Source: Cellulomonas sp. KRMCY2 (GTDB taxonomy: Bacteria > Actinomycetota > Actinomycetes > Actinomycetales > Cellulomonadaceae). From it: a stretch of DNA of 64,000 bases. The position numbers and the translations under genes were made by a program. The notes below the pieces were generated by a model. It ran no database searches. It saw only the letters and a program-made list of their open reading frames with translations, and was not told the origin of the DNA. The stretch's first letter is position 1, and each line of letters starts with the position of its first letter. The DNA lies in contig NZ_JAGF01000001.1 in assembly GCF_000526515.1 (NCBI RefSeq), positions 1,054,001 to 1,118,000 of the forward strand. Reading direction: 5' to 3'. Positions 1,907 to 29,128 of the stretch are shown in pieces.

Positions 1907-3238
1907 ATGGCGGCACCCCGCAGCACGACCCGCTCGAAGACCGCACCCGAGACCCGAGGGCCACGCCGAGCCGTCGTCGTCGGGGGGAACCGGATCCCGT
2001 TCGCCCGGTCCGGCGGCCCGTACGTCCGGTCCAGCAACCAGGACATGCTGACCGCGGCGCTCGACGGGCTGGTGGCTCGCTTCGGGCTGGCCGGCGAGCG
2101 CATCGGCGAGGTGGCGGCCGGCGCGGTCCTCAAGCACTCCAAGGACTTCAACCTGACCCGCGAGGCGGTGCTCGGCTCGGCGCTGTCGCCCGAGACGCCC
2201 GCCTACGACGTCCAGCAGGCCTGCGCGACCGGCATGGAGACCGTCGTCGGGCTGTCGAACAAGATCCGCCTCGGGCAGCTCGAGTCCGGGATCGCCGGCG
2301 GCGTCGACTCCACCTCGGACGCCCCGATCGTGGTCAGCGACCCGCTGCGCCGGGCTCTGCTCGACCTCAACCGCGCGCGGACGACGCCGCAGAGGCTCGC
2401 CGCGCTCGCCCGGATCCGGCCCGGGCACCTCGCGCCGTCGGCGCCGACGACCGCCGAGCCGCGCACCGGACTCTCGATGGGCGAGCACCAGGCCCTGACG
2501 ACGGCCGCCTGGCGGCTGACCCGTAAGGCGCAGGACGAGCTCGCCCTGGCCAGCCACCACAACCTCGCCGCCGCCTACGACGCAGGCTTCTTCGACGACC
2601 TGCTGACCCCGTACCGCGGCCTGACCCGGGACGCGAACCTACGTGCGGACACCTCGTTGGAGAAGCTGGCAGCCCTCAAGCCCGTCTTCGGCACGCACCT
2701 GGACGTGCCGGCGACGATGACGGCCGGCAACTCGACCCCGCTGTCCGACGGCGCATCGACGGTGCTGCTCGCCAGCGACGAGTGGGCGCAGCAGCGCGGC
2801 CTGCCGGTCCTGGCGACCCTGGTCGACGTCGAGGTCGGTGCGGTGGACTTCGTGCACGGCCGGGACGGTCTGCTGATGGCGGGCGCGCACGCCGTCCCGC
2901 GGATCCTGGCCCGCAACGGCCTGACCCTGCAGGACTTCGACTTCTACGAGATCCACGAGGCGTTCGCCGGCACCGTGCTGTGCAACCTGGCCGCGTGGCA
3001 GGACGAGGAGTTCTGCCGCGAGCGCCTCGGGCTCGACGGTGCGCTCGGGGAGATCGATCGCAGCCGGCTCAACGTCAACGGCTCCTCGCTGGCCACCGGG
3101 CACCCGTTCGCAGCGACCGGTGGTCGGATCGTCGCCACCGTGTCGAAGCTCCTCGCCGCCAAGGGCTCGGGGCGCGGGCTCATCTCCGTGTGCGCTGCCG
3201 GTGGGCAGGCCGTCGTCGCGATCCTGGAGGCAGCATGA
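1907..3238 (+). CDS. Acetyl-CoA C-acyltransferase (thiolase, FadA2-like)
   Basis: 443 residues from ATG 1907, preceded by GAGAGGA. All thiolase landmarks are present: nucleophile Cys106 in QQACATGME, His350 in EIHEAF, His399 in GHPFAATGGR and the second catalytic Cys429 in SVCAAGGQ. It would cleave 3-ketoacyl-CoA with CoA, or run the reverse condensation. It is first in an operon whose next two genes overlap by 4 nt each, encoding a reductase and a hydratase that supply its substrate. The order thiolase-FabG4-MaoC next to an acyl-CoA dehydrogenase resembles Rv0243-Rv0242c-Rv0241c and Rv0244c of Mycobacterium tuberculosis. The leader carries a (CAC)6 run at 1859-1876. Confidence 0.93.
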   Translation: MAAPRSTTRSKTAPETRGPRRAVVVGGNRIPFARSGGPYVRSSNQDMLTAALDGLVARFGLAGERIGEVAAGAVLKHSKDFNLTREAVLGSALSPETPAYDVQQACATGMETVVGLSNKIRLGQLESGIAGGVDSTSDAPIVVSDPLRRALLDLNRARTTPQRLAALARIRPGHLAPSAPTTAEPRTGLSMGEHQALTTAAWRLTRKAQDELALASHHNLAAAYDAGFFDDLLTPYRGLTRDANLRADTSLEKLAALKPVFGTHLDVPATMTAGNSTPLSDGASTVLLASDEWAQQRGLPVLATLVDVEVGAVDFVHGRDGLLMAGAHAVPRILARNGLTLQDFDFYEIHEAFAGTVLCNLAAWQDEEFCRERLGLDGALGEIDRSRLNVNGSSLATGHPFAATGGRIVATVSKLLAAKGSGRGLISVCAAGGQAVVAILEAA

Positions 3239-24547: not shown

Positions 24548-26412
<1,865 letters not shown>

Positions 26413-26479: not shown

Positions 26480-28627
26480 TCAGGACTGCTCGGGCCCGCG
26501 GGCACTGGTGAGGTTGCCGAACGGCACCGGCCGCACCCGCGCCCACACGAGCTTGCCGGTACCCGCCGGCCGCCAGCCCCAGTCGGCGAGCCGCTCGACG
26601 ATCTGGATGCCGTAGCCGCCGACCCGTCCCGGGTGCCCGTCGGTCGCCACCGGCGGTGCCGGGTTGGAGTCCTCGACCTCGATCCGCAGTCCCTCTCCGG
26701 TGTCGAACAGACGCAGCACGACGTGGCCCCAGCCGTGCAGGACGGCGTTCGCCACGAGCTCGGAGACCACCAGCTCGGCGCTGGCCACACCGGGGATCTC
26801 CCAGGCCGCACAGGTACGCAGCACCGCGTGCCGCGCCCGGCCGATCGATGCCGGCTCGCTCGGCAGCGACCAGCGGCGCCGCCGCGGGCTCGGCGCACCA
26901 GGGGTGGGCACCGCGTCGGGGTCAGGGATGCGCACGACCACGACGGCGACGTCGTCCTCGGGCTCGTCGGCCAGCCGGGACAGCAGCTCCTCACCGACGC
27001 CGGCCGCGTCGAGGGCGCCCACCTGACCGGTCACCTCGACCAGTGCGCGCAGACCCTCGCGCAGCGTCCGGTCACGGCGCTCGATCAGCCCGTCGGTGTA
27101 CAGGACCAGGACGTCGCCCGGTGCCAGCTCGTGCCGCCCGGTCGACCGCCCGGTGTAGCCGAAGCCCACCATCGCACCGCCGGCCTCCGACAGCTGGACG
27201 ACCTCGGACCCGCGCGCGACCAGCGGGGGCAGGTGACCCGCGCGCGAGTAGCTCAGCGACCAGCCGGTCGGGCTGCGGGTCAGGGTCGCGAACACCAGGC
27301 TGGCCGAGCGCGGGATCCGCATCCCGGCCACGAGCTGGTCGACGCGGTCCAGCACGGCACCGGGCTGGGTGTCCTCGAACGCGTAGGACCGCACGACCGA
27401 GCGCAGCTGACCCATCGCGGCCGCGGCCTCGACGTCGTGCCCGACGACGTCGCCGATCACCAGGGCGATCACGTCGGGGTTCACCTGGAGCACGTCGTAC
27501 CAGTCGCCGCCGACCTGGGCGTGCCCGGAGCTCGGCGCGTAGTACGTCCACACGTCGAGGTCCTTGACCTCGTCCTGCTCGGGCAGCATCGCGCGCTGCA
27601 GCGTCTCGGCCAGGCGGTGCTCGCGGGCGTACAGCCGGACGTTGTCCACCGCCATGCCGACCCGGCGGACCACCAGGTAGAGCACTGTGCGATCGCTCTC
27701 GTCCAGCCCGGCCAGCCCCTGCCCGTCCCGCGGCAGCGTGACCAGGACGCCCCGCGCACCGCGCCGACCCGGGATCCCCTGGACGACGACGAGGTCCGGC
27801 AGGTCACCGTGCCCGTCCAGGGCGGCACGCACCAGCTCGACGAGCCGCCGCGTGCTCGGCCCGCCGGCGTCCACCGCGAGCGGGAGCTCGATCGCGTCGT
27901 CGGACCCGCCGTCGAGCAGGTCCTGCACGACGTCGTGCACGCCGGTCGAGCCCCGACCAGCGTGCGTCCGCGCGCGGCGGCGTCCGGAGATGGCCGGCTC
28001 GTGGAAGCTCGCGTCGATCCCCTCGGCCGCCCGCAGGCCGGCGTCGTCCACGAAGAAGGCCGCCCAGGCCACGACCTGCTCGCGCAGCAGACCGGCGATC
28101 TCCCGCAGCACGTACGGGTCCTCGAGGTCCGAGAGCAGCTCGGAGACCTGCGCGACGAGCGTCAGACCGGTGCGGGCCCGCCGTTCGACGTCGATCGAGC
28201 GCTGCTGGGCATCGGAGTGCTCGACCTGCTCGGTCACGTCGACCTGGATGCCGACCCAGTGCGTGACGCGACCCTGGTCGTCCGGGACCGGGGACACCGA
28301 CACCTGGTTCCAGAAGGCGCTGCCGTCGCGACGGTAGTTGAGCAGGATGACCGTGGCCGGACGCCCGGCGGCGACGGCGTCGGCGAGCACGCCGGACTGC
28401 GCCGGGTCCGTCGCGGGCCCGTGCAGCAGGTTCGGGTTTCGCCCGAGGACCTCGGCGAGCGGGTAGCCGGTCGTCCGCGTGAAGGCGTCGTTGACCCAGA
28501 CGATCGGTGTGTCCGGCGCGTTGGCGTCGGTGATCACGAAGGACACGTCGGTCGCGCGCAGCGACCGCTGGAGCACACCGTCCAGCGGGTCGTCGGACGT
28601 GGCGGAGTCGATCATGCGATTGACCAT
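26480..28627 (-). CDS. LOV-like PAS / SpoIIE-type PP2C phosphatase / HATPase anti-sigma kinase
   Basis: 715 residues from ATG 28627, with GGAGG 5 nt upstream. Residues ~20-135 are a PAS domain closest to LOV: GRNPNLLHG (62-70), LLNYRRDGSAFWN (Asn97, Asn107) and VGIQVD (Gln128) align with flavin-binding LOV positions, but the adduct Cys is Pro65. A GAF-like region follows (~160-335). The PP2C domain has GGDWYD, GDVVGHD and LYTDGL, the metal Asp residues. The C-terminal ~130 residues are an HATPase_c domain (SELVANAV; EDSN; GGYGIQIV) of the anti-sigma kinase class. It could therefore both phosphorylate and dephosphorylate STAS partners. Two STAS genes flank it. Confidence 0.87.
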   Translation of the reverse strand: MVNRMIDSATSDDPLDGVLQRSLRATDVSFVITDANAPDTPIVWVNDAFTRTTGYPLAEVLGRNPNLLHGPATDPAQSGVLADAVAAGRPATVILLNYRRDGSAFWNQVSVSPVPDDQGRVTHWVGIQVDVTEQVEHSDAQQRSIDVERRARTGLTLVAQVSELLSDLEDPYVLREIAGLLREQVVAWAAFFVDDAGLRAAEGIDASFHEPAISGRRRARTHAGRGSTGVHDVVQDLLDGGSDDAIELPLAVDAGGPSTRRLVELVRAALDGHGDLPDLVVVQGIPGRRGARGVLVTLPRDGQGLAGLDESDRTVLYLVVRRVGMAVDNVRLYAREHRLAETLQRAMLPEQDEVKDLDVWTYYAPSSGHAQVGGDWYDVLQVNPDVIALVIGDVVGHDVEAAAAMGQLRSVVRSYAFEDTQPGAVLDRVDQLVAGMRIPRSASLVFATLTRSPTGWSLSYSRAGHLPPLVARGSEVVQLSEAGGAMVGFGYTGRSTGRHELAPGDVLVLYTDGLIERRDRTLREGLRALVEVTGQVGALDAAGVGEELLSRLADEPEDDVAVVVVRIPDPDAVPTPGAPSPRRRRWSLPSEPASIGRARHAVLRTCAAWEIPGVASAELVVSELVANAVLHGWGHVVLRLFDTGEGLRIEVEDSNPAPPVATDGHPGRVGGYGIQIVERLADWGWRPAGTGKLVWARVRPVPFGNLTSARGPEQS

Positions 28628-28723: not shown

Positions 28724-29128
28724 GTGCGCGACGCTAACAGCCGGACGCCGGACGGGCCTGTCGAGCTCACCACGCCGGACCGGCGTGCACCCCAGATCCC
28801 CGGCGAGCCCGCCTCGGTGCACGTGATCGTCGGTGACGGGCGCACCCGGATCGTGCTGTCGGGCGAGGTCGACGCCGACCTCGCGGCGGAGCTCGCCGAG
28901 GCCACCGACGACGCCGAGGCCACCGGGCTGCCGATCGACATCGACGCGCAGCACGTGACGTTCATGGACTCGTCAGGCATCGCGTTCCTGGCCCGCATCG
29001 CGACGCGGACCACCGAGCGCGTGCGCGTCCTGCGTGCACCGGAGACCGTCCGCTTCCTGCTCGGGGTGACCCGCATCGGCGAGCTCCTCGACATCGTCGA
29101 CGACGACGGCGCCGCACCGAACCCCTGA
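28724..29128 (+). CDS. STAS-domain anti-sigma factor antagonist, B
   Basis: 134 residues from GTG 28724, preceded by GGGAG. A ~30-residue Pro/Thr-rich head is followed by a STAS domain with TRIVLSGEVDADLAAEL and the phosphorylation motif FMDSSG (Ser83). It is divergent from the LOV-like phosphatase/kinase gene (96-nt shared promoter region) and is the second antagonist of this module. Different flanking residues around the serine suggest it is not redundant with protein A (inference). Confidence 0.85.
   Translation: MRDANSRTPDGPVELTTPDRRAPQIPGEPASVHVIVGDGRTRIVLSGEVDADLAAELAEATDDAEATGLPIDIDAQHVTFMDSSGIAFLARIATRTTERVRVLRAPETVRFLLGVTRIGELLDIVDDDGAAPNP

Follow-up and report, generated by a model that had tools for sequence, protein, structure and literature searches.

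A LOV-derived domain with proline at the photoactive cysteine site in a predicted partner-switching protein of Cellulomonadaceae

What might a LOV domain report once the cysteine that forms its flavin adduct has been replaced? The question is raised by a gene of Cellulomonas sp. KRMCY2, located in the window analysed here (64,000 nucleotides; contig NZ_JAGF01000001.1, positions 1,054,001 to 1,118,000), whose product joins an N-terminal LOV-like domain with proline at the cysteine site to predicted phosphatase and kinase domains. A preliminary description of this DNA had proposed that the protein could be a redox or cysteine-independent light sensor feeding a general stress pathway.

Architecture of the gene and its flavin pocket

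The features of the locus are listed below in window coordinates (the clade referred to is that of 17 rows defined by the tree of the output half).

28724..29128, plus strand (GTG start inferred): divergent STAS gene with a DSSG phospho-acceptor motif (PF13466, 5.8e-13)
26480..28627, minus strand (ATG at 28627): sensor gene, 715 aa, with LOV-like PAS, GAF-like, SpoIIE (PP2C-type) phosphatase and HATPase kinase domains (open reading frame, translation, Pfam, AlphaFold)
28178..28591, minus strand: LOV-derived PAS domain with flanking helices, residues 13-150 (PDB sequence search, AlphaFold, Foldseek)
28421..28444, minus strand: GRNPNLLH loop, residues 62-69 (sequence and alignment columns)
28433-28435, minus strand: codon of Pro65, in place of the adduct cysteine (sequence)
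28337..28339, minus strand: Asn97, ring-edge contact (AsLOV2 N482), in 17/17 of the clade
28307..28309, minus strand: Asn107, ring-edge contact (AsLOV2 N492), in 17/17 of the clade
28244..28246, minus strand: Gln128, N5/O4 contact (AsLOV2 Q513), in 15/17 of the clade (others: Ser, Ala)
28133..28234, minus strand: long helix 132-165, joining the LOV domain and the GAF-like one (secondary structure, full-length model)
27701..28132, minus strand: putative GAF-like domain, residues about 166-309, mixed alpha/beta (secondary structure of the model)
27587..27700, minus strand: long helix 310-347, running into the phosphatase (full-length model)
26927..27475, minus strand: SpoIIE phosphatase domain, residues 385-567 (PF07228, 1e-38)
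26579..26866, minus strand: HATPase (RsbW-like) domain, residues 588-683 (PF13581, 3.6e-9)
26062..26412, plus strand: convergent STAS gene with a DSTG motif (PF01740, 8.7e-13)

Pfam models matched the protein over their cut-offs as PAS_9 (residues 29-133), SpoIIE (385-567) and HATPase_c_2 (588-683), and none matched between PAS_9 and SpoIIE, where we use the name GAF-like on the strength of the modelled secondary structure. The full-length AlphaFold model (mean pLDDT 83.3, pTM 0.55) had as its best solved Foldseek match 3ke6, the RsbU and RsbW domains of Rv1364c. The phosphatase region carries the metal-binding Asp motifs of SpoIIE/RsbU-type PP2C enzymes, with G373, G374, D375, W376, D378, G392-D398, T511-L514 and E557-D559 invariant in 27 aligned proteins; equally invariant are the N-box Glu/Asn and the G2 box of the HATPase domain (E623, N627, G670, G671, G673), a predicted anti-sigma kinase of the RsbW/SpoIIAB type, the label 'anti-sigma' being applied to the 715-aa protein on purely architectural grounds. 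In the STAS genes on either side, the serines of DSSG and DSTG are predicted phospho-acceptors of STAS antagonists. Helical linkers from sensor to PP2C domain have been proposed as a general control element, and the coiled-coil linkers described in that source are comparable to helix 310-347 (PMC12143880). Promoter and terminator scans found no site, and the search for other HATPase_c_2 proteins recovered mostly frames long enough for histidine kinases. Elsewhere in the window (22379 to about 23150, minus strand), the list of open reading frames holds a lipoprotein-like frame with the look of an L,D-transpeptidase, upstream of purC.

By sequence and predicted fold, the N-terminal domain is a LOV descendant. 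The LOV motifs quoted in the preliminary description are all present in the open reading frame (EVLGRNPNLLHGPATDP, LLNYRRDG, FWN, GIQVDVTE), and a phmmer search of the 134-aa domain against PDB sequences yielded 161 distinct sequences with an E-value no higher than 0.001 (top E 3.9e-35); among the best 60 of these 161 matches, all that could be identified by name or title were LOV domains (phototropin, aureochrome, CagFbFP, NmPAL, Meiothermus LOV). The NCBIfam models for a blue-light histidine kinase and for YtvA matched the domain at 4e-35 and 1.4e-33 (below their whole-protein cut-offs), closer in sequence than the NifL model (5e-19, below the NifL cut-off). The comparison of a predicted structure with known LOV domains, which the preliminary description had put forward as a check, gave a domain model with a pLDDT of 94.5, whose best solved Foldseek match was the LOV domain of Meiothermus ruber (9vf7; TM 0.95, rmsd 0.8). 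The proposed LOV pattern is thus borne out, and the PDB, NCBIfam and Foldseek matches rule out an ordinary PAS domain with a chance LOV resemblance.

Positions in the pocket are compared in AsLOV2 numbering, through equivalences that we take to hold and that were partly checked against published passages. The adduct cysteine of GxNCRFLQ is absent, with Pro65 at its position, and the ring contacts Asn97, Asn107 and Gln128 are all retained; on both points the preliminary description was right, residue numbers included. As the Pro65 site offers no thiol, a cysteinyl-flavin adduct is impossible there. Other losses went unmentioned in the preliminary description. The arginine pair that contacts the FMN phosphate in YtvA (R63 and R79; PMC3836802) is gone, with Asn66 and Ala82 instead, and the equivalents of YtvA Phe64 and Gln66 are Leu67 and His69; because both phosphate arginines and the loop glutamine are lost, the flavin site is altered beyond the cysteine. 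The LOV* filter of Yee et al. 2015 (PMC4682037) selects domains without Cys62 that keep at least nine other conserved residues, those named being YtvA G59, N61, R63, F64, L65, Q66, N94, N104 and Q123; the Pro65 domain retains six of these nine (R63, F64 and Q66 are lost) and falls outside the filter.

The proline form and its module

A match to the domain (E 1e-12) was present in 179 of the 221 genomes of the family. The homologue survey suggested in the preliminary description found proline at the cysteine site in all 17 genus genomes with a readable module domain, out of 19 (in the other two, G003 and G015, the module is present and is cut by the end of the contig, hence they are uncounted). 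The named or MAG records with the proline form (n = 13) comprise eight listed under Actinotalea, three under Cellulomonas (bogoriensis, carbonis and fimi) and two MAGs without genus.

The 17 genus rows form one clade in the output-half tree (support 100/99), and residues were counted on this clade, given that the 'Pro-LOV' class (22 rows) is itself defined by Pro and Asn, which makes counts of these residues on it circular. Proline occurs in 17/17 rows of the clade, with the two residues beside it variable, and a mutation in a single genome or a sequencing error is thereby ruled out as the source of Pro65. In AsLOV2 numbering, Asn482 and Asn492 are each found in 17 rows and Gln513 in 15, Arg451 and Arg467 in none, and Gln454 in two (His in 15). 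None of the 73 Cys-LOVs used for comparison departs from Arg451 or Gln454; Arg467 is present in 56 and absent from 17. Outside the clade, nine relatives with a partial pocket have Pro (5), Ala (3) or Val (1) at the cysteine site, and one Pro form (L028) has lost the second Asn.

Some further variants were observed. In the module orthologue L097 (genome G178, 2288-2635, minus strand) Val occupies the cysteine site, Cys replaces the first Asn and His replaces the Gln, an odd pocket with further alterations. L106 (genome G182, 818-1195 and 2226-2615, on opposite strands) has two LOV-like domains, one with Ala (NARFMQ) and the other with Cys; the second Asn and the Gln are missing from both. LOV-like domains with proline at the cysteine site and without the second Asn were also seen beyond the Actinobacteria, in an Opitutaceae MAG (L075), Seohaeicola (L077), Thalassococcus (L078) and a Rhodospirillales MAG (L081).

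The survey recovered cysteine forms as well, both as orthologues in other families and as paralogues in the genus, where 13 of the 17 Pro-bearing genomes have a separate canonical Cys-LOV on another SpoIIE protein; in the other four (the window's genome included, and one of them only 83% complete) no second LOV match reached E 1e-12. These counts bear on the idea that the Pro65 domain is a cysteine-independent blue-light receptor, working by photoreduction of its flavin to the neutral semiquinone. Signalling by the semiquinone is known from VVD and YF1 engineered to lack the cysteine (PMC4682037), the domain has Gln128 as well as the Trp/Tyr residues in FWN and NYR, which correspond (in our numbering) to donors discussed for iLOV (PMC5645311), and the four genomes just mentioned would lack another LOV photosensor. 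However, the studied Pro form, BAT-LOV*, photoreduces slowly and with low yield (PMC4682037), iLOV required an added proton donor (PMC5645311) where proline supplies none, and the Cys-LOV of the 13 genomes could itself serve light sensing. Light sensing by photoreduction is hence possible but unsupported for this domain, and we consider such a receptor improbable.

At E 1e-60, 72 of the 396 genomes sampled from the order contained the output half of the protein, with identities of 54% upward and the next kin at 37%; ten of the 394 genomes in the class sample matched, four of them shared with the order sample and six distant (39-48%). The divergent STAS gene lies beside 93 of the 94 module rows. 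Its convergent counterpart is present at 60% identity or more in 61 rows, more weakly in 14 (perhaps cross-matches) and not in 19, many of the stretches being short; at least one of fba and purA accompanies 82 rows and both accompany 23, in compared stretches of unequal length, so that absence is not demonstrated. For the eight Cys-LOV rows, the convergent STAS gene reaches at least 60% identity in four, and fba or purA is found in five; a sixth (L055/L199) has both fba and purA in a longer stretch. Most are thus orthologues in place, and for the others orthology is founded on the divergent STAS gene together with the output half. Twelve plasmid records matched, none across more than 80% of the protein.

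By their sensor, the 94 module rows fall into Cys-LOV (8), Pro-LOV (22), intermediate or partial forms (4) and PAS domains without the second Asn (60). Among the 56 of these 60 pocket-less rows that could be aligned to LOV, the first Asn is kept in one, the second in none and the third-site Gln in ten (all outside the window's family); the 28 alignable pocket-less orthologues from Cellulomonadaceae have Asn at 482 in one case, and neither Asn at 492 nor Gln at 513 in any. Three pocket-less rows have a Cys aligned near the site, with both Asn missing. PAS homologues without the Asn contacts, which the preliminary description had named as evidence against its proposal, therefore do exist in other lineages of the module (the 60 of 94 rows) and do not occur in the 17-row clade.

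The sensor classes cluster on the output-half tree, with nine changes among its 91 rows versus 31 when labels are shuffled, and no Cys-LOV row falls on its Cellulomonadaceae side (97/93). In the LOV-domain tree, which holds only two pocket-less rows, the Cys-less module LOVs stand beside actinobacterial Cys-LOVs (support 90). After removal of the active-site columns, trees in which all module LOVs (p-AU 0.281) or the Cys-less ones (p-AU 0.579) were held together were not rejected, and in the free tree neither set forms a single clade. The history of the sensor within the module is compatible with domain swap as well as with vertical descent. A Cys-LOV ancestor is the natural reading, by which the cysteine would have been lost and not gained. 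As to sampling, 21 duplicate loci were dropped before the trees, the long rows L185, L186 and L189 and six outgroup rows before the output-half tree, and ten rows, either long or odd, before the tree without active-site columns; the rows of the domain tree were anchored on the window domain or on an HMM, and insertions were dropped as a result. Canonical NCRFLQ LOV domains occur on the same type of module in L055/L199 (of uncultured Pseudokineococcus type), L209, L190, L191, L192, L194, L205 and L210 (the last with Leu at the Gln site), which are candidate blue-light partner switches from other families of the order.

Constraint on the domain and the signal it may report

The distance between sensors relative to that between output domains was used to gauge constraint. 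The median ratio was 1.53 for the Pro clade (136 pairs), 1.10 for the module Cys-LOVs (28 pairs) and 4.38, 4.81 and 3.84 for three pocket-less groups (45 pairs each), the pairs being non-independent, the Cys group small and the three groups covering 30 of the 60 pocket-less rows (one group of 14 was cut to ten by leaving out gappy rows). A second alignment gave 1.53 (Pro), 1.10 (Cys) and 4.38, 4.74 and 3.83 (pocket-less). At output distances of 0.30-0.45 the ratios were 1.47 for Pro (82 pairs), 1.50 for Cys (5 pairs) and 4.48 for pocket-less forms (18 pairs); at 0.20-0.30 they were 1.65 (46 pairs), 1.01 (2 pairs) and 4.29, 5.36 and 3.39; at 0.10-0.20, 1.35 (7 pairs), 0.97 (one pair) and 4.27, 3.95 and 4.91. 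Relative to the output domains, the Pro-LOV domain has thus changed 2-3.6 times more slowly than its pocket-less orthologues at matched distance, a wide gap that recurs in each of the three bins. Its pace is almost as slow as that of the module Cys-LOVs, and it may evolve slightly faster than these.

Within 14 clade proteins the mean identity is 0.685 in the LOV domain versus 0.566 in the GAF-like part. Twenty-six columns are conserved in no fewer than 95% of the 73 Cys-LOVs; the 17-row clade keeps 20 of them and is relaxed in six, namely four of six in the GxNCRFLQ loop versus two of 20 elsewhere (Fisher about 0.013, calculated by hand and post hoc). Across the 22 Pro-LOV rows, conservation is complete or reaches at least 90% at 54 of 138 positions, a background above which the three contacts do not stand far. 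Judged by these figures, the constraint on the domain approaches that on a functioning LOV; being tightly conserved despite the change from Cys to Pro, the domain is probably a working sensor and not debris; a decaying relic is made unlikely by the slow rate, which persists at matched distance and with the second alignment. Constraint of this strength testifies to a function, and not to the identity of a ligand.

We propose (with a probability of about 0.45) that a LOV photosensor within an old partner-switching module has lost its cysteine, still holds a flavin and reports the redox state of that flavin. The replacement of the adduct cysteine by proline would have been accompanied by the loss of the fit to the FMN phosphate, the polar edge for the isoalloxazine ring being kept, and the site would still hold riboflavin, FMN or FAD. 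Reduction of the flavin would protonate N5 and cause Gln128 to rearrange, a change that helix 132-165 and the GAF-like domain may relay from the LOV domain to the phosphatase. The dephosphorylation by SpoIIE of one or both flanking STAS proteins would then shift, with the HATPase domain putatively acting as the counteracting kinase, as a binder of the target once freed, or as both. The data themselves show LOV kinship, residue states, conservation, relative rate, gene order and predicted fold; loss rather than gain of the cysteine, flavin binding, the redox signal and the STAS proteins as substrates are what we infer.

The flavin redox reading is favoured because of the ring-edge pattern in conjunction with published flavin data for YtvA and BAT-LOV*. 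A kept ring edge with a relaxed loop is what one would expect of a site that still binds the ring but has become indifferent to phosphate and thiol. In YtvA the affinity for riboflavin and for FAD exceeds that for FMN, with no binding energy contributed by the phosphate (PMC3836802), and BAT-LOV*, which also carries Pro, accepts FAD, FMN or riboflavin and undergoes a shape change upon chemical reduction (PMC4682037). Given that the glutamine is generally dispensable for LOV signalling (PMC9098866), the two Gln-less members of the clade need not be dead. A Trp at the AsLOV2 F509 position, present in 16/17 of the clade, is shared by 22/28 pocket-less relatives, so it is not a flavin adaptation, and its candidacy as a new electron donor was dropped; it might help to fill the pocket.

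The same losses can also be accommodated by an ordinary PAS domain that is free of flavin, serves dimerisation and signal relay, is kept for its shape and marks a step toward the pocket-less orthologues. The disappearance of the cysteine, both phosphate arginines and the loop glutamine would agree with this, as would the persistence of modules in the 60 of 94 rows without the second Asn and the Trp common to the pocket-less relatives. Yet burying Asn, Asn and Gln without a ligand would presumably be costly, and the rate difference from the pocket-less groups at matched distance runs against it; we regard a flavin-free domain as doubtful. Alternatively, the polar pocket may hold another small ligand (a pterin, a nucleobase or a metabolite), with ring-edge contacts kept and phosphate and loop contacts relaxed as for a molecule without a ribityl-phosphate tail. 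Riboflavin, however, explains this pattern without a new assumption, and as nothing speaks positively for another ligand we hold it to be very improbable.

Beyond the flavin redox reading itself, we tentatively envisage a conversion in situ, at one chromosomal place, of a blue-light receptor into a flavin redox sensor that is free of the thiol and has given up phosphate-based selection of FMN, with the photoactive ancestral type kept in related families and a flavin-free end state reached elsewhere.

Output pathway and comparison with known systems

The model for SigB/F/G-type sigma factors (TIGR02980) had 17 matches in the genome of origin, none over the cut-off (best 133.1 of 234.35 bits); by our reading, the top match is an RpoD-like protein and the next two are WhiG/FliA-like and FliA-like. 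As no SigB/F/G sigma factor reaches the curated cut-off in this genome, we do not retain the general stress pathway put forward in the preliminary description, and a SigB-type target of the module seems unlikely. The same genome encodes two sigma-28-like factors (L228 at C1:4281247 and L229 at C1:1363473; WhiG/FliA type by our reading), of which the second has a flagellin-like frame as its neighbour; with SigB missing, both are possible targets of the partner switch.

Natural Cys-less LOV domains, Pro forms included, were reported in 2015 with about 70 entries (Yee et al. 2015, PMC4682037), and Pro-form LOV domains were described again in archaea in 2025 (PMC12202551). The origin of LOV domains from redox-active flavoproteins, or its reversal, has been argued from engineered proteins and one archaeal example (PMC4682037). 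A literature search for the module family by name and architecture, with coverage mostly outside subscription journals, returned no title or abstract opening on the subject, and on this limited basis the module series and the constraint result appear to be new. The rate comparison adds evidence that a natural Cys-less LOV descendant is a conserved working part. Given that Cys, Pro and pocket-less forms share output domains and largely gene order, the effect of a sensor change becomes testable with much else alike, and the conversion in situ (if true) would provide a natural series in which a photoreceptor changes its signal while the output module stays.

Among known systems, NifL and Aer are flavin redox-sensing PAS proteins without the adduct cysteine; unlike NifL, the Pro65 domain is nearer to LOV models. 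OsaC includes an anti-sigma kinase part in its chain, and to our knowledge the PAS domains of Rv1364c and OsaC are not known as LOV-derived. Rv1364c (M. tuberculosis) and OsaC (Streptomyces) resemble the 715-aa protein in uniting a phosphatase and an RsbW-like kinase in a single chain. Both combine PAS/GAF with PP2C domains, and Rv1364c has an anti-anti-sigma domain within the chain (PMC12143880), whereas the gene described here is flanked by two separate STAS genes.

The canonical actinobacterial LOV-SpoIIE proteins and YtvA (LOV-STAS) likewise pass from a LOV sensor to SpoIIE/STAS signalling, and eight of the 94 rows of the present module carry a Cys-LOV; they differ by the thiol, which is missing at Pro65. 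In its sensor, the Pro65 protein resembles the haloarchaeal BAT-LOV* (PMC4682037), a multidomain regulator with a GAF domain; the LOV fold, the ring contacts and the change from Cys to Pro are common to both. The LOV* set of that source was, however, chosen for keeping YtvA Arg63, Phe64, Leu65 and Gln66 (among others), of which the Pro65 domain retains only Leu65, and the output of BAT-LOV* is a DNA-binding module, where that of the Pro65 protein is SpoIIE-HATPase.
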